From Medicago truncatula (Eukaryota > Streptophyta > Magnoliopsida > Fabales > Fabaceae), in NCBI RefSeq assembly GCF_003473485.1, contig NC_053046.1, positions 9,868,001-9,932,000 on the forward strand: a stretch of DNA of 64,000 bases, written 5' to 3'. Shown here piece by piece: positions 5,520 to 52,146 of the stretch. Positions within the stretch are counted from its first letter, which is position 1. Every line of letters starts with the position of its first letter. A program made the position numbers and the translations under genes. The notes beneath the pieces are model-generated. The model was given only the letters and a program-made list of their open reading frames with translations. It made no database searches and had not been told where the DNA came from.

Positions 5520-5618
5520 GAGAGCAGTGAACAAAAGTTTTGAATCATACTTCTCCTTATAAAATATATTTCTGCAAACTCAAAAAAGTTACGTTTCGTA
5601 GAGAAAAAGTGTTAAACG

Positions 5619-18921: not shown

Positions 18922-19328
<407 letters not shown>

Positions 19329-19410
19329 GCCACGGTGATTGGATTGAAATGAGAGAGAGGGATTATGGTTTTGTTGATTTTGATTTGTGAGAGAATTGGG
19401 ATTTTGTGTG

Positions 19411-22127: not shown

Positions 22128-22417
22128 GTTGCTTGAAAATCAGCTCTGGCAACCGGGGCAGTGAAGAAACCACACTGTTTCTGTCATGGAACCGTTGCTC
22201 TTCGTGAGATCCGTAAGTACCAGAAGAGCACTGAGCTTCTAATAAGGAAGCTTCCGTTTTAGAGACTTGTGAGGGAAATTGCACTGTTGTTTATGGTCTT
22301 CAAGAAGCTGTTGAAGCTTATTTTGTTGGTTTGTTTTAAGATATTAATCTTTGCGCTATTCATGCTAAGAGAGTTACTATTATGCCTAAGGATATTAATC
22401 CAGTGGCTTATATTTGA
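22128..22417 (+). pseudogene. Histone H3 fragment downstream of PILS copy B
   Basis: The fragment starts at the RKSALAT region and runs through CATGGAACCGTTGCTCTTCG, GAGATCCGTAAGTACCAG and on to TTCATGCTAAGAGAGTTACT. The N-terminal tail is missing, and internal stops and deletions are present (for example TTTTAG near 22260). It converges on PILS copy B and mirrors the H3 next to copy A in inverse orientation. Confidence 0.8.
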
Positions 22418-23093
22418 TTAAGATGTTCCAAGTTAGGGTTGGGTTTCTGATTTATATGTGTTTTTTATTCTGTTTAGATGGTTAACTTGTAACAGTGCTA
22501 TGATCCACAATTTCGTAGTGAGGAGGAGTTCTATAGGAACACATCCAACCATTTGGAAATTTTATAAAGAAATATTTCTATTCTAAGACAAATATAAAAA
22601 ACACAGAGGGGAAGGGATTTATTTCATCCAAGAGCAGTATCTATATCAATTAATAAACATTCATAATATACAAATTATTTGTAAAATGGATAGAAATAAA
22701 GACAAAATTACAAGAAATCAAAATGAAAATAATAGGAGTAAAATTTTGTTTCCAGTGCAAGACTAATGGACTACTACATGAAAAACACACTTTACATTTT
22801 TCAATAGATAATGCACTTTTTTCCTATAGAAGGAAATAGGATATGTCTAGCTAGATACATGTTCTGAATGTCATCATTTTTGGAGGGACATGAAAACCAA
22901 TTATGCCTGACTCTTAACATTGTTTTCTGGCATTAGTTGATTTATATGAGATCCAACAATGCCAAGAGGAATGTTTTTCATTAGATATTGTTTTCAGTAG
23001 ACAGTAGTCACACAACCATTATCCACAGCACCTTAAAAGACGTACACTCTTGTAGCAAATATTTTCTGTTTTCATTAAAAAGTATAATGTAAC

Positions 23094-26000: not shown

Positions 26001-29000
26001 GAATTCAAGGGCAACAAATGATGATTTTGTTGCGGTCATTTCTGAAATCAACATGATTGAAGATGTTGATTCATGGTGGATAGACTCTGGTGCTACTCGC
26101 CATGTGTGCAAAAACAAGAAAATGTTCAAGACCATCAATAAAGATGTGAGTGTTTTGTACATGGGAAATGATTCAACTGTGCAAGTCCAAGGAAAAGGGA
26201 CCATAGAGATTGAATTCACTTCTGGAAAAACACTTACTCTTAAAGATGTATTTTATGTTCCTGAAGTTAGGAAGAACTTGATTTATGTACCATTACTTAA
26301 TAAGAATGGGTTCAAATCTGTATTTGAGGGAGATAAATTTATCCTCTCAAAGGGGGGTGTGTTTGTAGGAAAGGGATATTTGTGTGGGAATATGTTCAAA
26401 TGTAATGTTGCAAATATTAATAATAATAATAATAATATGATTTCTGCTTATATTGTTGAGTCTTGTGATTTATGGCATATGCGATTGGGACATGTTAATT
26501 TTAGAAAATTGGAGGATATGATGAAATCAAATCTAATTCCTAATTTTGATAAAATTTTTGATTCATGTACTACTTGCATGTTGACTAAAATTACAAGACA
26601 ACCTTTTAAAAGTGTTAAAAGAAGTTCTAGGGTGCTAGATTTAATTCATTCAGATGTATGTGATTTACATGGTTGGCCCACCATTGGTGGTAAAAAATAT
26701 TTTGTTACTTTCATTGATGATTGCACTCGATTTTGTTATGTTTATTTAATGCATTCAAAAGATGAAGTTTTAGATAAATTCAAAATATTTAAAGCACAAG
26801 TAGAACTTCAACATGAAACTTTCATTAAATGCTTTAGAAGTGATAGAGGAGGAGAGTTCTATCATCCGAGTTATTTTGAATCCACTGGTATTGTGCAACA
26901 AGTAACTGCACCATACACCCCACAACAAAATGGAATAGCAGAAAGGAAGAATAGAACTTTGGTAGAAATGGTTAATGCCATGTTGTCCTATTCTGGATTA
27001 TCTAAAGGATATTGGGGTGAAGCAATGCTAACAGCATGTTACATCCTCAATAGGGTTCCAAACAAAAGGAACAAAACAACCCCATATGAACTTTGGAAAC
27101 AAAGAAAGCTTACTCTTAATTATTTGAAAGTTTGGGGTTGTAGAGCAATTGTGAAAGTGCCTGAACCAAAAAGAAAGAAATTGGGTGAAAGAGGAATTGA
27201 ATGTGTATTTTTAGGCTATGCAGAAAATAGCAAAGCATACAGATTCTTGACTATTGAATCGAATGACTCATATTCTGTTAATACAGTAATTGAGTCAAGA
27301 GATGCAATTTTTCAAGAAGATAGATTTAACTCAATTTCTTATCCCAAGGATATTGTTCATTCTAATGTTCAAAATTTAGAAAACAATGAATCTGATATAG
27401 ATACATTGGATGGTTCAGAACTTAGAAGAAGTAAGAGGATCCGGAAAGAGAAAGATTTTGGATCTGATTTCTTCATGTTTCTTGTAGAAGGAACAAGTAA
27501 ATCCATAAATAGTTATGGACCAATTTGCTTTAACCTTGAGAGTGATCCGGTAACATATGAAGAGGCTATAAAATCTCAAGATTCAGCTTTTTGGAAAGAA
27601 GCTATTCAAGAAGAAATGGATTCAATTATGGGTAATAAAACTTGGAAAGTGGTAGATCTCCCACCCGGATCCAAACCGATAGGCTGTAAATGGATATTTA
27701 AAAGGAAAATGAAAGTGGATGGTACCATTGATAAATTCAAGGCTAGACTAGTTGCTAAAGGGTTTACGCAAAAAGAAGGCATTGATTATTTTGATACATA
27801 TGCACCTGTTGCAAGAATTGCATAAATCAGAATGCTAATTGCACTGACATCCATCCATAAGTTTGTAATCCATCAAATGGATGTTAAAACTGCTTTCCTA
27901 AATGGAGAGTTGGATGAAGAGGTATATATGAAACAACCGGAAGGGTTTGTGATCAAAGGTCAAGAAGATAAAGTGTGTAAATTAATTAAGTCTTTATATG
28001 GGTTGAAACAAGCACCCAAACAATGGCACCAAAAGTTTGACCAAGTTGTGTTAGCCAACGGATACATCATAAATGAATCTGACAAGTGTATTTACAGTAA
28101 ATTCCAAAATGGAAAAGGTGTCATGATTTGCTTATATGTAGATGACATGTTGATCTTTGGTACAAGTATAAATGAGGTTGAAGAAACAAAAGCTTTCTTA
28201 TCCAACAATTTTGATATGAAAGATTTAGGAGAAGCTGATGTGATTTTAGGAATTAAAATCATAAGAGATGGTAACCATATTGGTTTATCCCAATCTCATT
28301 ACATAGAAAAGGTGCTTCAGAAATTCAATCATTTAGATTGTAAATCGATCTCTACCCCATTTGACCAAACTATCAGTTTGCAACCAAACAAAGGTTGTCC
28401 TGTGGCACAACTTGAATATTCTAAAGTAATCGGATGCTTGATGTATGCTATGACTTGTACTAGACCTGACATAGCATATGTTGTTGGAAGGTTAAGTCAG
28501 TATACTAGCAATCCAAGTAAAGAACACTGGCACGTTGTGAAAAGAGTATTAAAATACTTAAAGGGAACAATGAATTATTGTTTAACATATAGTGGAGACC
28601 CTTCTGTTTTGGAAGGATACACAGATGCTAGTTGGGTAACGTATGTTGAAGATCATGCTTCCACAAGTGGATGGATCTTCAACCTTGGTGGAGGTGCAGT
28701 TTCTTGGGGTTCAAAGAAACAAACATGCATTGCCGACTCCACCATGGCTGCAGAATTTATTGCATTGGCTGCAGGGAGTAAAGAGGCAGAATGGCTAAGA
28801 AATTTATTGTATGACATACCAGTTTGGCAAAAGCCAATGGCGCCAGTATCCATACATTGTGATAGTCAATCCACACTATCAAAAGCTTATAGCCAAGTTT
28901 ATAATGGGAAATCAAGGCATATTGGTTTAAGACATAGCTATGTAAGAGACTTGATTTCTAATGGAATAATTTCCATCATGTTCGTAAGAACAGAGAAGAA

Positions 29001-31242
29001 TCTTGCAGATCCTTTGACGAAAGGTCTGACAAAGGATATGGTGTTGAAGACATCATTGGGGATGGGACTCAAGCCCATATCTAATTGATTACCAATAGTG
29101 GAAACTCAACCCACACTTGAGTAGCATCAAGTCTTGGGTTCAATGGTGAAAGTACACTATTAGAGTAATTGTAGTACTTGACAATAGATACATCCCAAAG
29201 GTAAAAGTACTTGGACCATAAGAAGAAAAAAGGTAGGATGAGGTTTTCCTCTTAATGGACATATAGCATATATTTGCTGGAATGCATACTTATGGGGCAT
29301 TCCCGATATAGTCTACCTATGTGAGAATGAAGTTTGGCCGCTTCACGGAGTTCAAGGGCTTGACTCTTAAATTCTCATGAAAAGGGATATATGACACAAG
29401 GCCTTCTTAATGTGTCATCTTACAAGTCTCTTTATCAATGGTACCGAGATTCTATGTGTAAGTTATGCACACTTGTTCTAATGGATAGTTGGTTCAAAGC
29501 TTGCCTACCATACTATTTGGGAATGAACGAAAACTTAACTTACTAAGTAATGGTTCAAATCGCGAGATACCATTATCTAAAGGCATGAATTTCCGGATTT
29601 ATGTGATTTAGTATTTTGAAAATGGTGGGGGATTGTTGGTGATTTCCAAAATAATGGAATCACTTTAGAACCAAAAGTTGTAACTCTTCATGGGAACCAT
29701 TCATATACATTGGAACATTATTATTTATTATTAATAATGAACCATGACATTGATTCAAGTATATATGGTTATAACCTTTGGCAAAAGGGTGCTTAATGAA
29801 TCATGGCATTGATTCAAGTTAAATAGGTGCTTTCTCTCATGTGAAGAGTCATATAATGCACTATAAATGCTTGACATTTGGGCATTAGTTGAATATACAA
29901 AAACCACACAACTACACACAATTTGGACAGAATTTTGTTACATTAACAACATAATTCTTCACCATTCTATTATTCTAAATCATCCATCAATTCTCTAATG
30001 CATGAGTGAATTGCTGGAACCATAAATCTGTAAAATACTGTTAGGAGATACGCTTGGTGTGGTTGTGCAATACACGTCAAGGAACTCATAGTATCCTGAA
30101 GGGGATTCGCCGGTCATTCCTATTGCATCCAATATACATTTATTGGTGGGGGCGAATCGAACCTAAAGGTTAGTGTGGCAACCCCATACACTTTGAGTTT
30201 TACATGCATGATCATTAAACATTTCAGGTTTCAAGTGCAGCAGCCTCTTCCCAACAAACAAGATATATAACAAAATCTATGTAGCACCATATACTTCTTA
30301 TAGAAGACATGTCTAGTGTCCGACATGGCACTGACACAAGTGATTACATTCAATTAATTCATATTCTCAAATTATTATTGGTGTCGACGTGTCAGTGTCT
30401 TGTTCGGTGTCTATGTGTCAGTGCTTCATAGAGCAAAGTATAAAAATGTGATAGGATGATGATGCCTTACTGCCATAGAGAAAGATGCATATGAGAGTGC
30501 ATTGCTGTGGCATACATCGCGTGCACCAAATGGACCTCCTTTCTCATTACATATTGCTGGGATAATTACAACTGGCAAGCCTCCCATGTTTCCTGGTTAA
30601 TTAAAGCATAATTCATGAAATCAGACCATTTTAGATAACAGTTACAATTATTTATCTCTCACAATACCTGATGAACAAGCAGCAATAATAAGACCTTCTA
30701 CTTTCAAGTTAGGTCTTAGTAATTTTACTAATAACCATCCTAAAATCCCTCCAATTAAGAAGGTGAGTCCAACATTAACAGGCATAAACCACCTGTATCA
30801 ATCAGAAATAAACAAATTGATTACCGTGATAGCAAAATCAGAGTTATTTTCTGAGAGTCGAAAACTTAAAAGCCATATGTACCATGATATCATATCTTGA
30901 AGTGAAACACTTTTAGCAAAACTTGAAAATATAAGTGAAGGAGTGAATATAAAGAATGCAACCTGCAAAAGGTAAACCAAAAAAACAAAACAGTATTTGC
31001 TTTTCACATTGAAAATGTGTTATGTACATATATAATACTATAAGTTTTACTTATATTTATTTAAATTGATTAATACTATATTTAATTTACCTTGAAGCAC
31101 ATACCTTGTTCAAGGATTTCCTAAAATCTGGTGAAAGAAGATTGTTGAAATACTGAGTAGCCATAAAAGCCCCCAATGCACTAACAAGTAAGACTTGAAT
31201 AACTGGCATAGAAGCCACTTCCAAAAGTTGTACAAAACCCAT
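23094..31242 (-). CDS. PILS copy B, PIN-LIKES auxin carrier with a Copia element in intron 4
   Basis: Nine exons on the minus strand: 31105-31242, 30883-30962, 30668-30792, 30471-30592, 24239-24451, 23951-24070, 23757-23857, 23422-23660 and 23094-23221. They total 1266 bp, giving 421 residues plus TGA with no frame break. The N-terminus [16 protein letters not shown] is followed by several hydrophobic helices, a hydrophilic loop ([15 protein letters not shown] to IEDSESQI) and a second hydrophobic half with [16 protein letters not shown] and [12 protein letters not shown] motifs, the usual PILS two-bundle layout. The family sits in the ER membrane and controls nuclear auxin availability. Intron 4 is about 6 kb because of the inserted retrotransposon, so splicing of exon 4 to exon 5 may be less efficient. 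The closest copy is C. Confidence 0.88.
24519..25157 (+). repeat. 5' LTR of the Copia element
   Basis: It begins TGTTGGTGATTTCC and ends GATATATAACA. A TATA-like motif (CACTATAAATGC) lies near 24745. The LTR includes TGGTGGGGGCGAATCGAACC (25031-25050), which looks like a primer-binding site although it is inside both LTRs. Confidence 0.9.
25177..27825 (+). pseudogene. Copia polyprotein, gag-protease-integrase and start of RT, ended by a nonsense codon
   Basis: 882 residues. The gag domain (1-200) includes [18 protein letters not shown] knuckle [14 protein letters not shown] lies near 252, and the protease motif [12 protein letters not shown] near 300. The pre-integrase zinc region has HMRLGHVN and CTTC. 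The integrase shows the D, D, E triad within HSDV (about 491), SDRGGEF (about 554) and ERKN (about 588). RT begins with GCKWIFKRK. The frame ends at TAA (27823-27825) after APVARIA, where the family normally continues into the RT core. The following ORF is in the same frame after the stop, so the lesion is one substitution, not a frameshift. Confidence 0.92.
27832..29088 (+). pseudogene. Copia polyprotein, RT core and RNase H (downstream of the nonsense codon)
   Basis: This is the second part of the same 1304-codon frame. It contains [12 protein letters not shown], the RT catalytic YVDDM (about residue 986 of the whole frame) and KYLKGTMNY. The RNase H part follows, with [16 protein letters not shown] and the tail [13 protein letters not shown] then [13 protein letters not shown]. 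It ends TAA-free until TGA at 29086-29088. Without read-through the RT lacks its N-terminal part. The element could still be mobilised in trans by a relative. Confidence 0.9.
29634..30272 (+). repeat. 3' LTR of the Copia element, with polypurine tract
   Basis: It has the same length as the 5' LTR and one base difference. It is preceded directly by the polypurine tract GGTGGGGGAT (29624-29633). It is followed by the target duplication AAATC. Confidence 0.9.
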
Positions 31243-32430
31243 CTTTGCTTTTGATTTTCTTGTGCTGCAACTGAACTATACTATACACACTTCATATGGT
31301 TGCTGCTTAATCTGAACACTTTGAATTTATTTCTGTAGGTGAGAAAGATGAATGATTAACAACCAATGCTTACTTACTGAGATGTAGGGGTAAGGACCAA
31401 TGGTGACATGACATAATATGGCACATGCATGACAATGTATAGTCACTACATCTTATATTTATCCCCATGTGAAATTCTTTAACATACCCTTCATAGTCAG
31501 TATTAGATATATGAAGTGTGATCTAAGTGGCATGGTAGCAGATTGGATAAGTTATGGGTCGGCATAAGAGTAAGACTACTAAAACTCTCATTTTAGGTCT
31601 ATTAACAACAAAAAAATTATTTTTCATTAGATTTTACCGGCTAAAAGCATCTTAGGTAAATAAAAAAGATAAAAATATTAAAACTTGATATTAAAAATTA
31701 TTGCATCGACTTTGTAACACTTATTTTTTTTTACGAAACCGTTTAAAACATTTATAAACACATTTTCAAATACTATTTGACTCGTATTTTTTAACATAAT
31801 AATTGATTAATTGTTATAATTCTTCAAACACCGAAAGATCCTTCCAATTGCAAATTGCTATGTTAAAAGAAGTAATACAATTGGTTTTTATCGACATTTG
31901 ATTTATTATTATTCAAAAATAAACCTAAAGTCACTCACATAAAACTAGTGTACTCTAATTTGATGGTTTATTCATTATTAGTGGATTTAGAAATAACAAT
32001 TGGTTTGAAACTTTAGTACTATATGAGAATCCAAAAGAATTAGTAGTCCAAAAATGCTTGGAATGGGGACAATTAAGCATAATTAATAGAGACAAGTTTT
32101 ATATATACATGGTGATTCTTAGCACAATTTTTTTTGTCTAATTGTTGCTACAGTGTCCACATGAATCAATCTTTATCACGTCCCAGACAAATCAAATCCC
32201 ACCTCCCCCAAATTCAAAGGTGATTTAAAGTTGTACTGCAACTGTATTATTTATTATTATAATTACTACTATTATTTTTTTATTGTATGATCTCTTATTA
32301 GCCTGTTATATGCATTTTATTTTCAATTCAATAATTCGGGCTTATATTGTTGAGTTAAATATGAGTTGGGTGGGGGATGTAGTATTGAAGTCTCTTGGTT
32401 ATGGTCCACCACCATGGCAGATAAGTTTCC
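31243..32430. promoter_or_regulatory. Conserved upstream region of PILS copy B
   Basis: The first 1.2 kb upstream of copy B is shared, with indels, with the regions upstream of C (51278-53520) and D (61556-62950). Landmarks are ACTTACTGAGATGTAGGG near the leader, CCTAAAGTCA with ACTAGTGTACTCTAATTT, and GTTGCTACAGTGT. Likely promoter elements were therefore copied with the genes. Homology to C ends near 32430, where the LINE relic begins. Confidence 0.6.
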
Positions 32431-33930: not shown

Positions 33931-34637
33931 ATCATTTGAAATTACTTTTACTAATCCAATAATTCATAAGGAAATGTCCACTTAGTAATCTAGAGTTTAG
34001 GCGGTCGGTAAACTAAGTCAGGCTAAAGATTGTTCCAGCCAGGATTCGAAATCATTTTCTTCCAAATGAGTTGTATTTTTTTCTAAGAATAATTTGTATT
34101 TTGTGGAGGCTTATTAATCATTTAAGCTCAATGTGGTGTTGATATTTTCTCATCTTCAAATCCTAAACTATTTTTTTTTAAAAACATATCATATCTCCAA
34201 TTTTTAGTTAAAAAATAAGAAGGGGCCAAAACTGTTAAATTTTAAAATACAGGGACGAAAACTGCAAAATATTGAAAATTAAGGATCAAAACTGCAATTA
34301 AGAAAGTAAAAAACTATTTCAATTTATTTATTTGTTATATTTAGAAGAAAATATCTTGTAGTTGTAAAAATTTATTACAATTTCAAAAATTCGTTTGGAA
34401 TTGGCTATCCGTATGATGTTCCATTCAAATGCAAACAACCGTCGATAAAATCTACATCAACGGTTCATATCATCCCTTTTCACCATCCTAAATATTTTCC
34501 AAATTTTCATAATTCCTGTGTTTACCCTTACCTTCATAATCTCACCCTTTATATATCACACCAAGTCCCAGTTTCCTCTCAATGAATCCCAAATCCCAAA
34601 CCCTAATTTCATTCGTATTTCAATCCAGTCAACCGCC

Positions 34638-34802
34638 ATGGCACGTACCAAGGAAACAAGTCGCAAATCCATTGGAGGCAAAGAACCGTGCAAACAAATA
34701 GCCATTAAAGGAGCTTGGAAATTAGATCCGACAACCGGAGGAGTGAAGATGCAACATCGTTTCAGCCTCAAAATCATTGCACTTCGTGAGATCCGCAGGT
34801 AA
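34638..34802 (+). pseudogene. H3.3-like N-terminal stub
   Basis: The frame begins [20 protein letters not shown] and continues with TTGGVK and ALREIRR, then TAA. It matches the first 54 residues of histone H3 of the H3.3 type (TTGGVK). CGCAG|GTAATAC at 34799 resembles a splice donor, but no later H3 exon is found downstream. Several invariant residues are changed (Q5 to E, R17 to C, R26 to W), so a working histone is unlikely. Confidence 0.75.
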
Positions 34803-35290
34803 TACAGACACATCATATTGTTACTGAATTTATTACTCATCCATATGAAAGTTATATGCACAGAAACACACAAGATCTCACTAGTCTCGAGTTTCATTCC
34901 TTTACACTCTCAATCTTGCAATAAATCCTTTTACCATTTGATGATATATTACTCCATTTTGGGATCTCTAATAGATGAAAAGATCTAAAAATATGACATA
35001 TTGCTACTACATAACAATAAATTATAAAATTGAGAATCAATACAGGGCCCAAAAACCATCTAAAGTCCAAATAGCACTGTTAATAACATGTGGAAACTTA
35101 CCAACAACTGGATCAAAATCAAGTCTCATTTTTTTTTTTGAGGGATCAAGTCTCATTTCTTAGGGCTCACTATATCTCAATTTATTAAATTTGTTTAAAT
35201 TGAGAGATAGAGCGTCTGAAGCCATGATATTTGGTTTTGATCCCGTTGTGTTTAAGTTTTCACATGGTAGCAACATTGGTCCTTGGACTT
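34803..35290. repeat. Segment duplicated at 54340-54720
   Basis: Both segments share ATTTATTACTCATCC, AAAAGATCTAAAAATATGAC and CATAACAATAAATTATAAAA in the same order and orientation. The first follows the H3.3-like stub. The second lies upstream of the H3 C-terminal fragment at 55.8 kb. They look like two copies of the same old H3 flank. Confidence 0.7.
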
Positions 35291-35468
35291 TGGATGATTT
35301 ATGACTCCGTATTGATTTTCCCAATTTTATAAGAATTCTTCTCTTCTCCTAACTCATTTTGCTCGCGCCCAATTGAAATATCAAAAATATTCATATGTTA
35401 CTTAACTAATGCAAGTGTTAAAATCTGCGCAACTTAAGTCACGCAACATGAGTTAAGTTGCGCATAGT

Positions 35469-35590
35469 TATTCTAATTTATTTATCCACGCTATTCTAAT
35501 TTATTTATTTACATTATACTAATTTATTTATTTACTTTATTCTAATTTATTTATTTACTTTATTCAAATTTATATTCGAATTTATTTATT
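35469..35590. repeat. Tandem repeat, about 21-bp unit
   Basis: About five imperfect copies of TTCTAATTTATTTATTTACT lie head to tail. Confidence 0.75.
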
Positions 35591-35682
35591 GAATACGCAA
35601 TCATAAAATAAATGCAACAATTAACAAAAATAATAGATATAAAATATCATTTTATTAATATAATTCTTATTACATTTACAAT

Positions 35683-35900
35683 GGGGTAAAACTAAATTTG
35701 CGGAAAAAAAACCACCGGAAAACCTACCTATCTGGGGTAAAACTAAAAAAAAAACCACCATAAAACCTAGCTTGTTGTGGTAAAACTAAAAGAAATCCAC
35801 AAGAAAACCAGCCTTCTTGGGGTAAAACTAAATCTACACATTTAGGTTTACCCTTGAGGTAAAACTAAATCTGCTTCGTTTTACCCCAAGAAGGCTGCTC
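35683..35900. repeat. Imperfect tandem repeat ending in an inverted copy
   Basis: GGGGTAAAACTAAA recurs at about 35684, 35735, 35779, 35820 and 35857, with A-rich ACCACC-containing spacers. The stretch AGCCTTCTTGGGGTAAAA near 35811 is repeated in inverse form as TTTTACCCCAAGAAGGCT near 35880, so the right half can fold into a hairpin. Confidence 0.7.
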
Positions 35901-36180
35901 ACCAATAACTTTTTTACCCCAAGATTGACCTCTGTTTACACCTAAATAAAGACTAAAAAAAGAAGAAAAATACACCAAAATAAAGCTAAAATAAGAAAGA
36001 AAAGAAAGAGATTCATAGGGGGAGATAGTGAGGAGGAGAGTGAGAATGTGAGATGGTGTGAGAAAATGGGGAAGTTTGGAGGGGTATTTATAGGTATGAA
36101 TGGTAACATAGGTTATAAGTACCATAAATGTAGTCAAAAAACGTGTAAAAGTTGTAAAAAAAACGTGTAGAAGGTATAGG

Positions 36181-36345
36181 CTCATACGACAAGGATGACA
36201 ATTATGAAGTGCATCTTACTGATGGTGATTCAAATTCAACTGTAACTACTACTGCTAGAAGACCTTTCAAAAAGAAAGCTCATAACACAGATTCATCACC
36301 AAGTCAGGGAGATTCTTTCCTGCAGATTTTAATGAGGTGTGGGGT
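36181..36345 (+). pseudogene. Second PICKLE (CHD3) fragment
   Basis: The plus strand reads DDNYEVHLTDGDSNSTV, then ARRPFKKKAHNTDSS, then a deletion and FLQILMRCGV. This is the same region of PICKLE as the fragment at 20.1 kb, with different lesions. It directly borders the 3.4-kb palindrome that starts at about 36357. Confidence 0.7.
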
Positions 36346-36401
36346 CAACCTCCATGCGTGATTTCTGAATTTCTAGCACAATAAACACAATTTGGTTAGC
36401 A

Positions 36402-36403
<2 letters not shown>

Positions 36404-36452
<49 letters not shown>
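36404..36452. repeat. (AT)n microsatellite
   Basis: About 24 AT units in the left arm of the palindrome. The matching site in the right arm (about 39721-39732) has only a few. Confidence 0.95.
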
Positions 36453-36454
<2 letters not shown>

Positions 36455-37046
36455 AGCAAAACAGAGAATAATCCAACTGCACAACTTTACGATTCGGGAA
36501 ATTTTATAGTGATAAGTTGACATGTTTTTGTGGCAAAGTTATGATTACCGATTTTATACACTGGTGACAATAATGAAGCTTGGATGGTATTTTCACAAAC
36601 ATGTTCAATGAAAAAGAAGTGTACTATGAGTAATCAATCTAAAACCTGCAATAAACGTTTATTTTTCATGAAATGTGAGACTCTTCCTCACGCTTATATA
36701 GCAACAAGAAGGTATTTCAAATTCATTACAAAGTAAAAGATGATCGAAAAACTTTTGTAATAAAAGTTATCACATAAAAAAAAAAAGAGGTGATCACATA
36801 AGATAACAATATTAATATATAAGTGATTTTTTGTAATTCACTTAGCATGCAACTAATTCAAACGGAACGGTAGAATATATAATGTTTTGAATGTTGTTCA
36901 ATCACGTAAACCAAATTGCATAATATAAAAAGTGTTCTATAATTGAAAAAAAGGAAAAACCAAAAATAGGCTAAAAAACACTAGCCCAAGAGACCTGCTT
37001 AATACACATAACAGAAGAGTTTTGAGATAACTTGTAAAGTAAGAAA

Positions 37047-37207
37047 TTATCCATCTACGTTTTCGTCCTCATCTTCCTCAATTCCTAGCGCTGTCTGCTT
37101 GCGGATTGGACATAAATTCTTCAACTCCAACCATTGTTTGATGCAGTCAAGATGAAAGATATGCACACAATCAAGTTACCAACTCTCTCGCCCTCCACAT
37201 AGTCCTC
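37047..37207 (-). pseudogene. RING-H2 exon, left arm
   Basis: The minus strand reads LDCVHIFHLDCIKQWLELKN, then LCPIRKQTAL and an acidic tail ending DENVDG and TAA. The first half of the RING is absent. An in-frame TAA precedes LDCVH, and the last metal ligand is changed (CPIR for CPIC). An acceptor-like TTAG precedes GAGGAC. The family are E3 ubiquitin ligases; this copy is not functional. Confidence 0.75.
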
Positions 37208-38808
37208 CTAATAAACATGAAAAATGACGACTACGAGACTCGCACAATCTAATGTTTTTGGATTTTAATATTTAGTTCAACTATTCTTACAAAATAAACT
37301 TGTTCGAATATCATAGTAACTTTGTCAAAAACAAAAGAATATAGGTGTTTCTTTTTATAAAAAAAAAATAATTAAGATTTTATTTCAACGCGGGACTTTG
37401 ATTTTCTCAATATCATATTGTTCCCTAAAGAGTTTCATGTGCTATTAGAAAAAGTTAAATCACAAACTACCTAAAGAGTTTCATGTGCCATTAGAAAAAT
37501 CACAAACTAAATTAATTACAAACAAATAAATGTGAAATTAAATTTTGAGGTAATAGAAATGACATTTCAAAAAGAAAGAAACAAGTAAATCAATGTTTTC
37601 CCATCTATTATCACTAAAAAAGAGAAAAACAATCTCTTATACATGCTATTGTAAAAAGTTGAAACAGATACAAAAATAAGAAATATATCTATAAAATAAA
37701 ACGAGTTTTTAATTTTACCATGTCTAAACACTTAGGAATGACAAAAATAAGAGATGGATTTTTTTTTTTACGAAGTAAATTGTGTTGACATAATCTTGAA
37801 ATTTCATGTGTTTGGTTACACTCAATTAATTAATGAATGAAACATGTAGTTGGCCTCACCTAGCATATGATACATGTTTGATTATGAGTACTTGTTTCCT
37901 CAGGATTTATCCGATAAGTTTCCTGTTGAATGTACATAAAGATTTCTTGTTCTGTCAGTCCTGTCTCGACACTCTCCCATTGATCAATCTTGAGGAACAT
38001 TCAATGGGAGAGTGATCAATTTCGGCACTTGAGAGTGATCAATGGGAAAGTGTCGAGACAGGATTGATAGAACAAGAAATCTTCAGGTACATTCAACAGG
38101 AAACTTATCAGATCAATCCTGAGGAAACAAGTACTCATAATCAAACTTGTACTATATGCTAGGTGAGGTGAGGCCAACTGCATGTTTCATTCATTAATTA
38201 ATTGAGTGTAATCAAACACATGAAATTTCAAGATTAGGTCAACACAATTTACTTCATTAAAAAAAAATTCATCTCTTATTTTGTCACTCCTAAGTGTTTA
38301 GACATGGTAAAATTAAAGACTCGTTTTATTTTATAGATATTTCTTATTTTTGTATGTGATTCAACTTTTTACAATAGCATGTATAAGAGATTGTTTTTCT
38401 CTTTTTTAGTGACAGATGCAAAAACTTTGATTTACTTTGTTTCTTTCTTTTTGAAATGTCATTTCTAGTACCTCAAAATTTGATTTCACATTTATTTGTT
38501 AGTAATTAATTTAGTTTGTGATTTTTGTAATAGCACATGAAACTCTTTAGGTAGTTTGTGATTTAACTTTTTCTAATAGCACATGAAACTCTCCAGGGAA
38601 ATATCATATTGAGAAAATCAAAGTCCCACATTGAAAAAAATAATAATTTTTTTTTTATTATTAAAAGTCACTTATATTCTTTTGTTTTTGACGAAGTGAC
38701 TCTTATATTCTAACAAGCTGATTTCGTAAGAATAGTTGAACTAAATATTAAAATCCAAAAACATGAGAAATTTCAAGTCTCGCAACCGTATTTTTTCATG
38801 TGTATTAG

Positions 38809-38970
38809 GAGGACAATGTGGAAGTTGAGAGAGTTATTAGACTTGATCGTGTGCATATCTTTCATCTTGACTGCATCAAACAATGGTTGGAGTTGAAGAA
38901 TGTCTGTCCAATCTGCAAGCAGACAGCGCTAGAAGTTGATGAAGATGAGGACGAAAGCGTAGATGGATAA
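38809..38970 (+). pseudogene. RING-H2 exon, right arm
   Basis: A 53-residue open exon follows an acceptor (GTATTAG). It reads EDNVEVERVIRLDRVHIFHL, then DCIKQWLELKNVCPICK, and ends DEDESVDG and TAA. It is the inverted copy of 37047-37207 with an open frame, but the CxH ligand pair is lost (DRVH for DCGH-type). No upstream exon encoding the first zinc ligands was found. Confidence 0.75.
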
Positions 38971-39230
38971 TTAGCCTATATTGGTTTTTCTTTTTTTCAA
39001 TTATTGAACACTTTTTATATTATAAAATTGGGTTTACATGATTGAACGACATTCAAAACATTATATATTCTACCGTGCCGTTTGAGTTAGTTGCATGCTA
39101 AGTGAGTTACAAAAAATCACTTATATATTAATTGTGTCTACCTCTCTTTTTTATATTGTTACTTATGTGATCACCTTTTTTTTATGTGATATCTTTTATT
39201 ACAAAAGATTTTCTATCATCTTTTACTTTG

Positions 39231-39710
39231 TAATGATGATGAATTTGAAATACCTTCTTGTTGTTATATATAAGCGTGAGTCTTTTCCGTTGAACATGTT
39301 TGTGAAAATCTCATCCAAACTTCATTATTGCACTAGTGTATAAGATGGGTAATCACATCTCTGCCACAAAAACATGTCAATTTATCACTATAAAATTTCC
39401 CAAATCCAAAAGTTGTGCAGTTGGATTATTCTTGTTGGGTAATGATGATGAATTTGAAATACCTTCTTGTTGTTATATATAAGCGTGAGGAAGAGTCTCA
39501 CATTTCATGAAAAATAAACGTTTATTTCAGGTTTTAGATTGAGTACTCATAGTACACTTCTTTTCCGTTGAACATGTTTGTGAAAATCTCATCCAAACTT
39601 CATTATTGCACTAGTGTATAAGATGGGTAATCACATCTCTGCCACAAAAACATGTCAATTTATCACTATAAAATTTCCCAAATCCAAAAGTTGTGCAGTT
39701 GGATTATTCT
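39231..39710. repeat. Local tandem duplication in the right arm
   Basis: GATGATGAATTTGAAATACC occurs at about 39235 and 39444. The sequence from CTTTTCCGTTGAACATG to GCAGTTGGATTATTC occurs at about 39281-39432 and 39561-39710. The first copy lacks about 70 bp (GAAGAGTCTCACATTTC to GTACACTTC) that the second and the left arm keep. Confidence 0.8.
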
Positions 39711-39789
39711 CTGCTTTGCTTGATATATATATGTTTGCTAACCAAATTGTGTTTATTTGTGTTGGAAATTCAGAAATCACACATTGCCA

Positions 39790-40650
39790 CTTTTGTTTGT
39801 AGGTATCTCGGGTGTTTGATACTTGTTAGTGTTCAATACTAAGACATGTGATTACTTATTTTCTAGTTGTTTTCCATATCGATGTATTCGTACAAGTGTT
39901 ATGTCCGAAATTTGTGTAAGCGTTCGTATATCATAGTTGAAGAGTTTCAATACATTAAAAAAATGTGCCTTCATTCTTTACTTGATTATGGACAACTATA
40001 GAAATACAGGTTATACTAACATTGTTGCCACATTAAAAAACTTCTATTATTTAGTACATTAATAATTAGTGATGACACCTTGACATAATAAATATTTTAG
40101 TGTCATTTATGATTAATTTTGTAGTCTTTTAGGAATGTATTTTATTATTTTAGGGAAGTTTTGTACTAATTTGAAGAAATGATCAATAAATAAAAGAATT
40201 GCACTAAAGATCTTTAAACCATATCAATTAACCCAAACCAGACAACTTTATGATCATGGCGTATTTTGTACAAAATGTATTAAGTGATCTTTTGAGATAT
40301 AATCACTACAGATGTATTAGTAAAGAGAAATGAGACAAAAATTGAAGAAAATAAATTAACCAACTACTTTCAGCTACGCATCATACAAGCTGCGAAGAAA
40401 GTCATGGACATGCCACTGTCTCATGCCCATTGTGCAGAGGAGGTTTGCACATTTTGCAGTTATGTTATTGAACTGGTGGGTCACGATTTCCTATATGAGG
40501 CAAGAAACAACACTCGTTTAGGGTTCAATTTTTTTATGAAAAGAAATATGAGGAATGCGATTTCTAAACAATTCAAACTGAAGATCAACCTTGGAAATAA
40601 GATTGGGGCTTTATTATCATCATCATTATCAACCTTGGAAATTGGTTAAA
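39790..40650 (+). repeat. Segment duplicated at 56840-57650, containing an unexplained ORF
   Basis: Shared landmarks in the same order are GTTGCCACATTAAAAA, GTGATGACACCTTG, AAGATCTTTAAAC, GACATGCCACT/GACGTGCCACT, and GGGGCTT with ATCATCATCAT. An 81-codon ORF at 40404-40649 (MDMPLSHAHCAEEVCTFCSY) corresponds to a broken frame at 57402 onward. I do not recognise the protein and do not claim it as a gene. The segment seems to belong to the H3-side flank of the PILS units. Confidence 0.6.
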
Positions 40651-40679
40651 AGTGTAATGTTGACACAGTAATTTTCACA

Positions 40680-41780
40680 GGTGATCAGAAAATTAGCATG
40701 TGAGCAGTCTTACTGGATGGTGATGGACAATTTGTAGCGGCGGTGAGTGATGTTTTGAGGACTTCGATGACACCTTTAGACAGTGATACGTTGGGGCTGC
40801 TTCAAGGCCTTAATTGGATCTTAACTTTGGGTCATCAAAAGGTCATTTTTTAATCAGACTGGAAGATGTTGCTTGATTATATGCACTCCAACAAGATGAA
40901 TCATTTGGAGTATGATATAATGGTGAAAAATTGTAAAACTATACTTCATACTTAAAATAGCCATGTAGACGTGTTTAGGGGTGATTGGGTGGTTTAAAGA
41001 TCCCGTCAAATCCACCCAAAAAAGTAGGTTGGGTTGGGTGATTGGGTGGATATGGTTTTAAAAATGAAAAATCCATAAAAAATAATGGGTTTTGGGTAAA
41101 ACCGGACCCATATCCAATAAACCAACTTATCCAATAATTTCCAAATTTTAATTTCATTTTCATAGGGAGGAAGAAGAATAACAAATGTTTTGATCATAAA
41201 TTTAGTTTAATTTCTAAAATTGACACAACACATCCTCTATATTGAAAATAAAAAAATATTAGAGTTACAAATTATGATGTTGCAATTTATAGTTACTTTT
41301 ATGCTAAAGCAATTTTACGTCATCCAACTTTAATTTATTTTAAGTATTCGATGATTAAATTTTTTATTTAATATTAAAATTTATTATTTTATGATGCTAA
41401 AATATAGTGAAAATAGGTTACATAATTATTTTAAAAAAATAAAAAGTTGAGAAATTTTTATGAAAAAAATACAAGGACTCGTCGTTTAGTCATTTCATAC
41501 TAACAAAAAAAAAAAGGGTAACCCACTACCCAACCCAAACCAAACCGGAAATTAGTGGGTTTGCCCAAACCCACCCATTAATTTAACGGGTGGATATTTT
41601 ACCTAACCCAAACCGGAGTACCCTATATGGTTCGGGTCTCGGGTTTGGCCAAACCCAACCCAAATCGACCCATGTACACCCCTAGACGTGTTTACTAGGC
41701 GTCAAGCAAACAGAAACATTCATGCTCTTACAAAGACGGCTTTATCGCATGCTTTTTGCAGTCCTTTTAATGAAATGTCT
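40680..41780 (+). mobile_element. LINE RNase H-like (RVT_3) relic, split by a hAT element
   Basis: Before 40968 the plus strand reads LDGDGQFVAAVSDVLRTS and LGLLQGLNWILTLGHQKVIF with stops. After 41684 it resumes with VDVFTRRQANRNIHALTKTA and LSHAF. These are the typical start and end of the RNase H-like domain at the C-terminus of plant LINE polyproteins. Joining across the hAT target site gives continuous homology. Confidence 0.75.
40976..41684. mobile_element. Non-autonomous hAT-like element
   Basis: The ends are TAGGGGTG and CACCCCTA, with longer imperfect inverted GGGTTGGGTGATTGGGTGG-type arms. The 8-bp target duplication GACGTGTT (40968-40975 and 41685-41692) is the hAT signature. Length is 709 bp. 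No transposase is encoded; small ORFs inside are low-complexity. Confidence 0.85.
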
Positions 41781-41784
41781 TGAG

Positions 41785-42644
41785 TTTGCTTGACAGTAAA
41801 AAAAGAAAAAAAAAATTTAAATCACATTTGATGTTTAATTATAAGTTAGGTGTTTGAAATTAAATTGGCAAATCCTCATACTCGATTGTGTGTGAAATTA
41901 TTTTTCGCTCTATTGAGTTTATGTGTAACAATTTTGTGAAGCTTTTTTTCTTTTTGTTGACATGTGAAACTTATGTTTTTACTTTGTCAAAGGTGGATGT
42001 AACGTATTATATGGGGTCAGTACTAATAAATGTGACCAGGTGTTGTGTTTTTGGCCATATAATATTCTAAAACTTTTCTCACGAAATATCCATTGGAGTG
42101 TGTCAAGTTTTTACATTTCACTTCCAACTGTTCTAATTTGATTTTAGTTGCTTTGAAAGCTTAGTAGCTATCTTCCATCAACATATGCTACAGAGGAGTG
42201 TGAGCTTAGTTTTATAGGATACCAAATACCAAACAATCAAATATAGTTCAAAAAAAATTTTTAGGGAAGTTGTACATTATTTTTTGTATCATTTCTTGGT
42301 TATAAATAACTTCTGTCAAGTTTTTTACGTTGGATACCAAGAACAAATCAACCATTTTATGTCATGGCATCGCATTAGTATTATTAACACACGTTAGTAT
42401 TACAACAGATATTTGGAAATAAATAAAAATAACTATTAGTTGTTTATTTGAGGAAAAAAAATACTATTAGTTTTGTTGAGCTTAATTACTATGCCATGGA
42501 CCTTTGAATGTTCAACCATAGGTATTGGAAACGTGATTGCATCTATTCAGCCAGAAGAAACAGACATTCACCATAATGTGAGAATATTTCTAAAATGATA
42601 GGATCAAATAGATATGAAATATTCAAATCACAAAAATGAGTTCT
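41785..42644. other. Intergenic, no gene seen
   Basis: AT-rich sequence with no recognisable coding or repeat structure. Confidence 0.5.
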
Positions 42645-45892: not shown

Positions 45893-46679
45893 GTGTGTTT
45901 GGATTGGGAAATTTTAAAGAAATTAAAATTTTAGGCAATTTTTTTTTTTTTGTGGTGGCTGGGGTTTGAACCCCAGACCTTGCATATTTTATGCATTATC
46001 TATATCAACTGAGCTAAGCTCGCGAGGACAAATTTTAAACAATTTAAATGATTCAATTAAATTTCTTTCATTTTTCAATACTTTTGTTTGGGTGGAGTAA
46101 TAAAAAATTTCAATGTCATCATCATTTTTGGGAAACTTTCATAAATTTTAATTTTTTTTGGGCCAAATTTGAAAATTGAAATTATGGGCCAATTTGTAAA
46201 TTTCAAAAAATTTGAGGGGTCAAATTATAATTTTTAAAAAATTGAGAGGTCAATTTATAATTTTTTGGAAATTTATTGGGGTCAAATTGAAAATTTTGAA
46301 AAAATTAAGGACCAAAATGCAAAATTTGAAAGATTATAACAATGAAGAATTTTGAATTTCTATAAATTTAACTTGAACAAAATACTTCATAAATTCCCAT
46401 CATTTTGAAAATTCTTTATTGGGGTCAAATTGAAAATTTTGAAAAAATTGAGGACCAAAATGCAAAATTTGAAAGATTATAACAATGAAGAATTTTGAAA
46501 TTCTTACCTTTTAGGTGTCATTTGAATTTCTCTGAATTTAACTTGAACAAAATACTTCATAAATTCCCATCATTTTGAAAATTCTTCAAATTATTATCCA
46601 AACAATGGAATTCACCTCAAAGTATTTGAATTCCCTGGTAACATTACATTCCCTCAAAACATTCCCCCATCCAAACACA
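45893..46679. repeat. MITE-like element with nested SINE and internal tandem duplication
   Basis: The left end GTGTGTGTTTGGATTGGG is matched inversely by CCCCCATCCAAACACA at the right. Inside lies a SINE (45939-46028) and a direct duplication: the block beginning ATTGGGGTCAAATTG at 46275 recurs at 46418, about 143 bp apart, and the second copy has extra bases. The right end is 10 bp upstream of the ATG of the H3 pseudogene. Confidence 0.65.
45939..46028 (-). mobile_element. tRNA-derived SINE
   Basis: The minus strand shows an A box (AGCTTAGCTCAGTTGAT), a B box (GGGGTTCAAACCCC) and an A-rich end (plus-strand T run at 45939-45951). It lacks a full cloverleaf and an acceptor stem, so it is not a tRNA gene. 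Confidence 0.8.
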
Positions 46680-46689
46680 ATCAATCACC

Positions 46690-47090
46690 ATGGCAGGTAC
46701 CAAGCAAACAGCACGCAATACTGGCGGCAAAGCACCACGAAAGCAGCTTGCCACCAAAGCCGCTCGAAAATCAGCTCTGGCAGCCGGAACAGTGAAGAAG
46801 CCACACCATTTTTGTCATGGAACGGTTGCTCTTCGTGAGATCCGTAATTACCAGAGGAGCACTTCTAATAAGGAAGCTTCCGTTTCAGAGACTTGTGAGG
46901 GAAATTGCTCAGGATTCAAGACTGGTCTGAGGTTCCAGAGTAGTGCTGTTTCTGCTGTTCAAGAAGTTGTTGAAGCTTGTTTTGTTAGTTTGTTTGAAGA
47001 TACTAATATTTGCGCTATTCATGCTAAGTGAGTTACTATTATGGCAAGGATATTGAACTTGCTCGCAGAATCAGAGGCGAGAGGGCTTAG
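46690..47090 (+). pseudogene. Histone H3 pseudogene near PILS copy C
   Basis: The frame starts [19 protein letters not shown], then [20 protein letters not shown] and [11 protein letters not shown] loss of about 5 bp after YQRST shifts the frame and a 1-bp loss near 46915 restores it ([17 protein letters not shown]). A TGA replaces the codon after HAK near 47029, and another 1-bp loss follows. The end GAGGGCTTAG matches the H3 stop. It is the best-preserved H3 relic in the window, 1.5 kb beyond the PILS-C stop and convergent with it. Confidence 0.88.
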
Positions 47091-48591
47091 ATTTGATTAA
47101 GATGTTTCAAGTTAGGGTTTAGGGTTTCTGATTTATGTGTTTTTTATTCTGTTTAAATGGTTAGCTTGTTATTATCTTGTAACAGTGCTATGATTTTCAA
47201 TTTTCATAGTTTTATCATTATGCATAGCTTTGATTTGGTATGATTATTTATTAAAAGTTTTGTAGTCTTTTGTTTCTGTAACTTTGCATATGAGTCGAAT
47301 ATTATTTTAGTAAGATACTTATTTGTTAATGATTGTCACTTTTCTAGGACTACAAGGATATGATTAAGATTGAAAAGTCGCATTGAAACTTATTACACAA
47401 ATGTAGACAATGGACATGAAATTGACAGTGACGTGTGGACACCAGTAATAATTTGAGAAAATAAATTATTTGAACGTAATCACATGTGTTGGTGGCTTGT
47501 TGTTGTTAGACATTAGACATTCTTTTGATGAGAGGTGTTGGTACTACGATGATTGAAACACAATTTACGCATTCATTTCCTTTTAGTCGATTGTGGACAA
47601 CAATATTCAGTTATAGATTTCTTCTGTACACCAATGTAGATATCAAGACCTGATCAATTTTATCTGATGTGCATTCATTTGTTTTCATAGTTCCACCTGA
47701 AACTATCATTGATAATGTAATGGCTGCTTTGAGTTGTGGAAGTCAATGTGATACTAATACTATGGTACTTTGAATTGAAGGTGTGTCTAACGCGTCTTTA
47801 GTGTCGACAAACAAAGTAGAATCAAATTCAAAACTTTATCTTAGATTCTATATATACAAACAAAGGGGAAGGCACTTTTTTTGGTTCTAAAGAATAGTAT
47901 TTGCACTAATAATTTTTTTTAACTAAATAATAACTTATAAAATTCAACCGTCTAACTGTGATTCTTATTTTAATTTTCATTCATGCTTATCAATTTTAAC
48001 ATAAAATTAGCATTCATAAATATGCAAAATTAATAAAAAAATAAAACATAAATACAATTAAAGACTTTCATGAAAATGGTATTCAAAAGGAACCAAGATA
48101 ACTTTTTTTACAAGAATTCAAAATGAAAAAAAAAATTATATATATATATGAGTACATTTTCTTATCTTGATTGGAACAAAAGAGGTTAACAAAATCTGCA
48201 TGCTGTGTACTGTTTTCAGTAGTTAGTCACACAGCCATTATCCACAGAACCTTAAAGAGACTTAAGCTCTTGTGGCAAATATTTTCTGTTTTCCACTTTT
48301 AAATATGATAATATCATCTTGTTTTTAAAAAAATTTCCTTTTTCAAAGTTTAGTATAGAAACATTGAAATAAACATTTTATTATTTTCAATGTTGTCTAT
48401 AGAAAACTGGGAAATAAAAACAAAGTGATATTATTGTGATTAACAGTCAACATATAATGACCATGACACCAAACAAGTCTTAGATCTCTTGAAGAGTGGT
48501 TTTTGATAGTATACTGCTGACTGCATCTTTTTCATTCTGCCGCGCGCCATCGGTGGCGGCAGAGTATAAAAAGTCAGAAGCTGAATGCAAC
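47091..48591. other. Intergenic between H3 pseudogene and PILS copy C
   Basis: No gene. The part at 47640-47770 (GATAATGTAATGGCTGC, GTTGTGGAAGTCAATGTGAT) matches 56930-57000 near copy D, again as H3-side flank. Confidence 0.5.
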
Positions 48592-51277
48592 TCAATAAGA
48601 TAACAGCCACAGGAGAAATGTTGACCAAGCAGTGAGAGCTATGGCTGCAGCACTATATGTCCACAACAGAATAACTGAACACTCTTCATTTCCTACATCA
48701 AACAGCTGAGCCATTGTACCTACATAATGTATCATCAAATTAATTTTGAAGTTAGGAACAACAATATAATATAGGATTTAATTGATATGCACCGACAGTC
48801 TAATATATAGATTTTTACACTGTCAATCAATCATAACTTTGGGATCATTAAAAAATATTTGATTTCAGTTATATATGTATACCTTTATATTCATACAAAA
48901 GATGGTTTGTGATCCATTGACAGTGTAAAAAGTTTTACACTTAGGGTGCATCAAAATTAATCTCATGTAACGTATCTATGGCTAATGAAATAACAACTAA
49001 TGTACTTCAATCAAAACAACTTCTATGCAAATATGTAATCTAATCACTTACTAATATTCATTGCTGGTGGCATTGCATACTGCATCACCAATGTATACTG
49101 AAACAAAGGATCCACTGGGAGAAAGCCGTAACTAGCCGCGGCTTTCACAATAAACAATCCAATAACAGGTAGCAGGAAAAGCCGGGTTATGATGATGCAG
49201 ATGAGTGTCAATGGTTTTACACTTGATGATTTCAAGCCTGCCGTGAGGTTACCACCAAGCAAAAGCGTGATGCAAGGAATTGTTCCGTTCCTGCAAAGAA
49301 TTAAGTTTAAACACATAATTGTGTGGTTAAAAAAGAAGTAGAGACTTTACGGACTATTTGATTTTTATGAAGAAATTAAGGCAGATACCCAAGTAATTCA
49401 AGAGTGCTTTGGATTACTCTAAATGGAGCATTGTCTCCAATTATTAACTTCCTTAACCATGCAACCGCTCCAAAGAGGAAACCGAAAAACTGATCATGGA
49501 ATAAGTAAATGTTAAATTTGAAACAAATGTAACAAAGCAGAGAAGAAAGCAAGCAAGAAAGAAGATAAAAAAAGGGGAACTCACTATAGAAATTGCTGGA
49601 GGTGATATTAGTTCTGCTAGAAGATGAGTTACAACTTCTATTATTCTTTTAAAAAATGATTGTTTCTCCTTCTTCGACTCATGAGACTGATCTTGTTCAT
49701 TAACCTAAAAATCAATATAGTTGAGGACATTTCAAATTATCACCGTCTGAAATAAGAGTTAAAGGAATTAAAGGACCAGGATTCAAACCTGGTGAAATAG
49801 AAAAATTTAACATAACAACTAATAAGCTACATTTGCCAATTCAAAAAAAAATTATAGCATAATTTAGCTCCCAAGGTCTTACAATTTGGCTTTCAGAGTC
49901 TTCAATATAACTCGACGGTAACACTTCTATCACGGCGTTTTCATCGTCTTTTCCCTTTAGAAGGGGAGTTTCTACATTTCCTTCAAGATCTTTGTTTGGT
50001 GCCTTTAGGATCTCAGCAGCCTCAAGTGCCTTAAATCTCAATGAGCTGCTTCTTATAGTTTGAAAAGTATAGGTCCATACGAAAATACCACCAAGCTACA
50101 ATCGAAAAATTATCACAAGACAATACAATAAGATACACATACTTCTGATAGAAGTCACGTCTAGTGTCCGACATGACACTGACGCAGGCGATTATATTCA
50201 ATTAATCATATTCTCAAATTATTATTGGTGTCGATGTGTGAGTGCCGTGTCCGGTGTCTATATCAGTGCTTCATAGAGTAAAGTATAAAAATGTGAATAG
50301 GATGATGATGCCTTACTGCCATAGAGAAAGATGCATATGAGAGTGCATTACTGCGACAAACATCACGTGCACCAAATGGACCTCCTTTCTCATCACATAT
50401 TGCTGGGATGATTACAATTGGCAAGTTTCCCATGTTTCCTGGTTAATTAAAGCATAATTCATGAAATCAGATAATTTTAGATAAAGTTTTTCATACAGTA
50501 ACTTTAATGCTATATTATGTTATATTGTAACAGTTACAATTATTTATCTATTCAACAAATGCAACTTTCCAAAAATATATTTTAGAAATATCTCTCACAA
50601 TACCTGATGAACAAGCAGCAATAATAAGACCTTCTACTTTCAAGTTAGGTCTTAGTAATTTTACTAATAACCATCCTAAAATCCCTCCAATTAAGAAGGT
50701 GAGTCCAACATTAACAGGCATAAACCACCTGTATCAATCAGAAATAAACAAATTGATTACCGTGATAGCAAAATCAGAGCTATTTTCTGAGAGTCGAAAA
50801 CTTAAAAGCCATATGTACCATGATATCATATCTTGAAGTGAAACACTTTTGGCAAAACTTGAAAATATAAGAGAAGGAGTGAATATAAAGAATACAACCT
50901 GCAAAACAGATAAAGCAAAAAAACAAAACAAAGTCACTACTTTCCGATTAGAATCGGCTAAGGAACCTTAAATCAATGACCGAAATCAATGAATGCATGT
51001 AAGTGCGTGATTTTCTAAATAGAGAGAAATATTTGCTCTTCACATTGAAAATGTGTTATGTGCATATACAATACTATAAGTGTTACTTATATTTAAATTG
51101 ATTAATATATTTAATTTAGCTTGAAATTGAATCACTTACCTTGTTCAAGGATTTCCTAAAATCTGGTGAAAGAAGATTATTGAAATACTGAGTGGCCATG
51201 AAAGCTCCCAATGCACTAACAAGTAAGACTTGAATAACTGGCATAGAAGCCACTTCCAAAAGTTGTACAAAACCCAT
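48592..51277 (-). CDS. PILS copy C, PIN-LIKES auxin carrier
   Basis: Exons on the minus strand: 51140-51277, 50819-50898, 50604-50728, 50317-50438, 49883-50095, 49585-49704, 49389-49489, 49052-49290 and 48592-48719. The sum is 1266 bp (421 residues plus TGA), identical in structure to copy B. Exon 6 reads [18 protein letters not shown], then [13 protein letters not shown] without a stop. The two hydrophobic halves, the central loop with [16 protein letters not shown] and the motif [12 protein letters not shown] are intact. Expected role: auxin transport across the ER membrane. It shares with copy B a short foldback sequence in intron 4 (GTGTCCGACATG), which indicates a B-C ancestor. There is no retrotransposon in this copy. 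Confidence 0.9.
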
Positions 51278-52146
51278 CTTTTCTTTTGATTTTCTTATTG
51301 TGCTGCAACTGAATTATACTATACACACTTCTTGTATTTGCTGCTGAATCTGAACACTTTACTTTGAATTTATTTCTGTAGGTGAGAAAGATGAATGATC
51401 AACGACCAATTCTTATTTACTGAGATGTAGGGTCAAGGACCAATGAGTCAGTGAGTACACTAAATACACGTTTGCATAAATTTCTTAACAATGAGACATG
51501 ACATCATATGTCACGTGCTTGATTGTTTAGACCAAACCAGATGCAGTGACGACCACATTTAACTTACTAGTATCAATCAAAGTGTATATTATTGCCATAA
51601 ACTATGTAACATTATTAATTCAAAAATACAATGTTGTATTGCTTTATATGCTGGTGCATGACAACATGAAAAATTATTGGTTTAATGACAATACATCCTC
51701 CCTACATAACTTACTCATTAAATGTGAAACTGTTAACATCTCCGATCGCCCACTATTAGACATATGTTCTAATTAATATGTCTAAGTGACTCGTTAGTAG
51801 GTTGGATAAAATTTTGATCGGCTTAAGAGTACGGCTACTAAAGTCTTTTCTTTAAGCCGATCAATAAAAAAATATTTTTCATTAGATTATATAAACAAAA
51901 TGTTTCTTATGCAGACAAAAATGATTCATATAAACTTATTTGATGCCTCACTTTTTATTAAAAAATTGTTGGATTGACTTTCGATAAACTCTAATTCCAT
52001 CTTAAAATTTGAGTTTGATAACTCAATCTTATCAAATTGGTTTATAACACTTCTTTGACAGAAATTTTTATAACATTTATGAACACATTTTCATGTGTTA
52101 TCTCATGCTCCCCCTAAAAAATTAAGTATCATTCCAAACAATCATG

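Follow-up and report, generated by a model that had tools for sequence, protein, structure and literature searches.

What does a mirror-image duplication of a ubiquitin-ligase gene fragment represent in a plant genome: a working source of small RNAs, a mobile element, or a relic? The question is raised by a near-palindrome at 36354-39784 (3431 bases) in a stretch of 64,000 nucleotides of Medicago truncatula DNA (assembly GCF_003473485.1, contig NC_053046.1, positions 9,868,001 to 9,932,000), referred to here as the window, in which all positions are counted. Each arm holds the last two exons of a RING-H2 gene, the penultimate of which brings the first two zinc ligands. The reading preferred here, held with reasonable though far from complete confidence, is that a fragment of a RING-H2 ubiquitin-ligase pseudogene was duplicated in inverted orientation long ago, leaving an ordinary relic for which little or no present function would be expected.

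Architecture of the palindrome

The symmetry was traced to both limits by repeat finding and arm alignment. A first-pass annotation of the window had placed the near-palindrome at 36357..39782, with a length of about 3.4 kb, arms of about 1.6 and 1.75 kb and a spacer of about 35 bp. Self-BLAST and arm alignment bear out this structure with slightly refined limits, the measured arms and centre being 1637, 1753 and 41 bp, close to the values first given. When the window was compared with itself, 37045-38972 matched its own reverse complement over 1951 columns at 88.9% identity (E 0.0), with outer blocks at 36443-36726/39732-39448 (92.3%) and 36687-36974/39280-38971 (84.6%). In the alignment of the two arms (36354-37990 vs 38032-39784), identity was found at 1387 of 1512 ungapped columns, so that the self-comparison which the annotation had proposed reveals arms matching along their length and not scattered matches; in an alignment of the whole halves, 1392 of 1530 columns agree. 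The centre carries another partial copy of arm-tip sequence, as judged by eye. It can be observed that the right arm is the longer one, mainly because of a tandem duplication within it. Two blocks, of 51 and 152 bp, are identical between the copies of this duplication and show it to be recent, and the first copy is without 69 bp. A further private indel, about 72 bp lying beyond the stop codon, is found in the left arm only.

These differences bear on whether the palindrome is real. Chimeric reads are known to yield long palindromes, and an assembly artefact had been raised at the outset as a possible refutation; it would here be a false mirror copy from a chimeric or snap-back read. Copies of a single molecule should be near-identical, whereas the arms are told apart by 125 mismatched columns out of 1512 (60 transversions among them) and by large private indels. 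Because of the private indels and the roughly 8% of scattered substitutions, an assembly artefact is judged extremely improbable.

Lesions of the RING exons and probable order of events

The first-pass annotation had assigned only the last exon of a RING-H2 protein to each arm. That exon is present in both, and translation and tblastn place the penultimate exon there also (termed exon B and exon A, respectively). The first two RING ligands lie in exon A, as CIIC on the left and CTIC on the right. In the right arm, exon A runs to CTIC, followed by TAG and then by a GTGAG donor; the intron has TTAG at its 3' end, and exon B encodes the C-terminus together with the remainder of the RING. This layout recurs on the minus strand in the left arm. 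Joined as A+B, the exons match the Pfam family zf-RING_2, the right pair at E 3.4e-10 and the left pair at E 3.6e-12, the queries having been translated through the stop as X, with a further X on the left at the residue where the frame is lost. Among solved structures, the left reading scores best with the RINGs of RNF126, RNF38 and ARK2C.

It had also been stated that neither exon is intact and that different zinc ligands have been lost, and translation and tblastn agree, with CPIR on the left and DRVH on the right. The lesions fall into two sets. Common to both arms is the TAG that forms the last codon of exon A, at a position where plant RINGs of the same type have Gln. Private to the right arm is the Cys to Arg change in DCVH; private to the left arm are the Cys to Arg change in CPIC and a 1-bp deletion. 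In neither arm are the eight RING-H2 zinc ligands found in an open frame. Since one ligand is lost in each copy, the TAG at the exon junction is shared and the left frame is broken, both copies are, to judge by their reading frames, pseudogenes from which no working RING protein is made.

The distribution of the lesions also points to an order of events. Because TAG stands in both arms and each of the other lesions in only one, the stop probably preceded the mirroring, and the RING-H2 unit would then probably have been dead before it was duplicated. The simplest order is probably stop, then mirror duplication, then private decay; gene conversion that moved the stop from one arm to the other would also do. 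The unit duplicated head-to-head would have comprised the last two exons, the intervening intron and 0.6-0.8 kb of 3' flank, and a duplication of snap-back or template-switch type may have produced it. Coordinates of the features are collected in Table 1.

Table 1. Features of the near-palindrome and its immediate flanks, in window coordinates.
Feature	Position	Length	Strand	Remarks	Basis
Left arm	36354..37990	1637 bp		RING exons on minus strand	self-BLAST, arm alignment
(AT)24 microsatellite	36405..36452			longer in left arm than right	arm alignment
Left exon B (last)	37047..37207	161 bp	-	1-bp deletion; CPIC to CPIR	translation, tblastn
Left exon A (penultimate)	37860..37985		-	5' start uncertain; final codon TAG	translation, tblastn
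Centre	37991..38031	41 bp			repeat finding, sequence inspection
Right arm	38032..39784	1753 bp		RING exons on plus strand	self-BLAST, arm alignment
Right exon A (penultimate)	38037..38162		+	5' start uncertain; same final TAG	translation, tblastn
Right exon B (last)	38809..38970		+	open to its stop; DCVH Cys to Arg (DRVH)	translation, tblastn, Pfam
Tandem duplication, right arm	39230..39710			copies 39230-39438 and 39439-39710	self-BLAST, arm alignment
Left flank, coding-like fragment	36167..36349		+	second copy 20207-19996, minus strand	self-BLAST, tblastn
Right flank repeat	39782..40626			matches 56846-57621, 69% over 852 columns	

Divergence of the arms and possible traces of methylation

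The 125 differences between the arms comprise 65 transitions and 60 transversions, corresponding to a Kimura two-parameter distance (K2P) of 0.088 and a transition/transversion ratio (ts/tv) of 1.08. These values lie near those of the two largest duplicated pairs in the window (K2P 0.086 and ts/tv 1.18; 0.083 and 1.19). The 10 comparison pairs as a whole spanned 0.018 to 0.186 in K2P and 0.62 to 2.00 in ts/tv and, being undated, are no test of rate. The exons have diverged to the same degree as their surroundings, with differences at 24 of 286 exon columns and at 101 of the remaining 1226 (Fisher p 0.91); the exon column count is 286 as computed and 287 by hand.

Differences of the C-to-T type within the palindrome were sorted by cytosine context (H being A, C or T), giving 15 of 82 for CG, 11 of 77 for CHG and 39 of 728 for CHH. 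CG and CHG together (26/159) exceed CHH (39/728) with p 1.2e-5. The CHG rate also surpasses the pooled value of the two largest comparison pairs (20/352, p 0.014); at CG there is no excess over the same pooled pairs (27/183, p 0.47). The excess at CG and CHG agrees weakly with a methylated, silent sequence, the evidence on cytosine methylation being mixed.

Several observations weigh against the reading as an old and ordinary relic. In exon A, 6 of 10 differences are synonymous where 18.7% would be expected, with a neutral P of 0.0045, uncorrected for three tests; the corresponding values are 3 of 14 for exon B (P 0.61) and 9 of 24 for both exons together (P 0.04). The split of the 24 differences, 6 synonymous and 4 not in exon A and 3 and 11 in exon B, is a hand tally. 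The synonymous excess in exon A hints at past coding constraint, for which a duplication of an already dead unit leaves no account. It would fit arms that came from two copies diverged under constraint, in which case the shared TAG would need another cause. Divergence is moreover patchy along the arms (permutation p 0.0074). With regard to methylation, the CHG rate of the palindrome is equalled or exceeded in two small comparison pairs (4/19 and 3/18), several of the pairs likewise have a raised CG rate, and the CpG observed/expected ratio is 0.59 for the palindrome, 0.63 and 0.59 for its flanks and 0.47 for the whole window. The ratio is not below that of the flanks, and therefore gives no sign of long and heavy methylation.

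Folding potential and comparison with hairpin loci

In plants, an inverted repeat derived from a pseudogene can bring about gene silencing, and plant Dicer-like enzymes cut long hairpin RNA. Folded in silico, the 3431 bases of the plus strand reach a minimum free energy (MFE) of -2099.8 kcal/mol with 1410 arm-to-arm pairs, and the minus strand reaches -2105.1 kcal/mol with 1311 such pairs, compared with -809.0 (left) and -777.7 kcal/mol (right) for flank controls of equal length. Expressed per base, this is -0.61 kcal/mol for the palindrome and -0.24 and -0.23 kcal/mol for the flanks. Between the arms, 21 identical uninterrupted runs of at least 21 bp were counted, the longest of 60 bp. Since both strands are predicted to fold into a long hairpin, a read-through transcript should, on general knowledge of plant RNA silencing, be a Dicer substrate. 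If the palindrome were read through from outside, the resulting RNA hairpin would have stems 1.6-1.75 kb long, open to cutting by Dicer-like enzymes, and the products would most likely feed the palindrome's own DNA methylation.

A stronger proposal is that of a working locus whose hairpin gives rise to small interfering RNAs (siRNAs) and silences intact RING-H2 relatives in trans, like GmIRCHS of soybean or Mu killer of maize. This is considered unlikely. In its favour are the fold potential, the 21 identical runs of 21-60 bp and the anatomy itself, the structural features of a hairpin-siRNA locus of the GmIRCHS type, a long near-complementary inverted repeat with a short gap, being present. 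A histone H3-like piece at about 34449-34802, on the plus strand and facing the palindrome, is a possible candidate for the promoter source; 34626-34795 within it is 71% like 46678-46844, and Pfam found no family for the H3-like open reading frame (ORF) near 34552-34802. Weighing on the other side, a protein search for the RING parent or target returned 6 candidates, none at E 1e-3, from a collection suspected to be poor in plant proteins. There is likewise no sign of selection keeping the arms paired, for which the comparison pairs, being undated, are no real test. Among viral contigs, a DNA pattern gave 0 matches and a protein pattern 20 matches, none confirmed, in a collection suspected to be plant-poor, and a literature search on an inverted repeat of a RING gene retrieved nothing on the subject by title.

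Known microRNA (miRNA) families were sought in Rfam. At E 1 over 34000-42000, no known family reached the gathering score, and all 10 rows lay below it: 4 at the palindrome centre, 2 in the AT run, 3 in a small inverted repeat at 35790-35915 to the left of the palindrome, and 1 at 34740. The best of these was MIR5649, at 53.2 bits against a gathering score of 100.

Comparison with described systems sets these results in context. In GmIRCHS, pseudogene arms of 1,087 bp stand inverted about a 78-bp gap, and like the present case it is a closely spaced inverted repeat of a plant pseudogene fragment, the transcript of which is expected to fold into double-stranded RNA (PMC13051633). It differs in that the copies in the window stand head-to-head, lie about 8% apart and are known here from sequence alone. 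Mu killer resembles the palindrome in being a partial inverted duplication; for it, read-through transcription has been proposed to produce a hairpin of about 4 kb and, from this, siRNAs, and short antisense transcripts unable to form large hairpins are also reported and offered as a new model (PMC3440606). Mu killer derives from the transposon gene mudrA and silences MuDR, whereas the source in the window is a RING gene. In a third source, Model 1 of MIR gene birth is the inverted duplication of founder genes, and the likeness lies in inverted gene duplication as the starting material from which hairpin small RNAs arise (PMC10004981); the palindrome differs from MIR genes in having no Rfam miRNA match at gathering score within 34000-42000. 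The palindrome is like GmIRCHS and Mu killer in anatomy, and so far not in activity. A natural hairpin-RNA locus derived from a RING pseudogene, with siRNAs that quiet living RING-H2 relatives or the locus itself and with arms which, about 8% apart, would lie between an siRNA hairpin and an miRNA-like precursor, is regarded as a decidedly improbable outcome.

Ends of the palindrome and a possible transposon origin

Foldback elements and Pack-MULEs (MULE, Mutator-like element) combine long inverted repeats with gene fragments. The palindrome might by this token be a foldback or MULE-like transposon with long terminal inverted repeats and captured RING exons, as the first-pass annotation had suggested in part. 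Both junctions are sharp, as such an element would have them, because the homology of the right flank begins at the palindrome end and the coding-like fragment of the left flank (36167-36349) ends a few bases short of its start. This fragment, for which no Pfam family reached the cut-off, presumably belongs with PICKLE/CHD3, a resemblance named by no tool. A second full palindrome, 612 bp long at 55200-55811 with halves about 87-89% alike, lies in the same window and is perhaps a foldback miniature inverted-repeat transposable element (MITE), which also lends the idea some weight.

The further evidence from the ends points away from transposition. The target duplications that had been proposed for the two ends were not found: none of 5-11 bp appeared at the offsets scanned (36335-36374 vs 39765-39799). 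Within the 64-kb window, no other copy of the 27-base ends was present within 7 mismatches, and three places matched at exactly 8; in both respects the palindrome differs from foldback elements and Pack-MULEs. A comparison of 36100-36353 with 56000-57100 yielded no empty site, the best row being 14 of 17 bases (E 0.78). No stop-to-stop ORF of at least 110 aa occurs inside the palindrome, and therefore it holds no sizeable piece of a transposase. The shared TAG, finally, weakens the capture of an intact exon. Despite the sharp ends, a transposon thus receives little support and is deemed distinctly unlikely, and the inverted duplication of a RING-H2 pseudogene fragment is retained as the preferred reading.

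Genomic surroundings

The region around the palindrome, with the gene content of a plant nuclear genome, contains many repeated segments and is rich in pseudogenes. Copies of one block occur in both orientations, at 15291-18238, 23086-31402, 48579-51445 and 58618-61790, and are about 79-98% alike. An ORF within it (17260-17607) matches the Pfam family Mem_trans, and the block is presumably PIN-like; another ORF, at 59604-59993, matches no family. One copy is seemingly split by a young Ty1-copia element at 24519-30273 (about 5.8 kb), with long terminal repeats 99.84% identical over 640 bp and two long ORFs separated by a stop. Of the histone H3-like segments, 46642-47028 matches Pfam Histone, and 19176-19415 (minus strand) and 22131-22282 are similar by DNA. 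Given the Mem_trans blocks, the H3-like pieces and the Ty1-copia element, duplication and shuffling of fragments are common in the window. In addition, a long ORF at 5616-6902 encodes IDM1 C-terminal, TDBD, PHD and GNAT domains (Increased DNA Methylation 1-like), and at 40975-41690 a possible MITE-like insertion with inverted ends was noted by eye inside an RNase H-like fragment.

Two copies of the repeated block (15291-18238 / 58653-61655) have a midpoint at about 38.45 kb, near the palindrome centre, which might be read as a giant palindrome. The coincidence is taken as chance, because the Ty1-copia element of about 5.8 kb, situated on one side only, must have shifted the axis by nearly 3 kb.

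Implications

The meaning of the palindrome depends on whether small RNAs arise from it. Without them, it would be an instructive but ordinary relic. If they exist, it would represent a middle-aged stage between a fresh inverted duplication and an miRNA gene, originating from a ubiquitin-ligase pseudogene.
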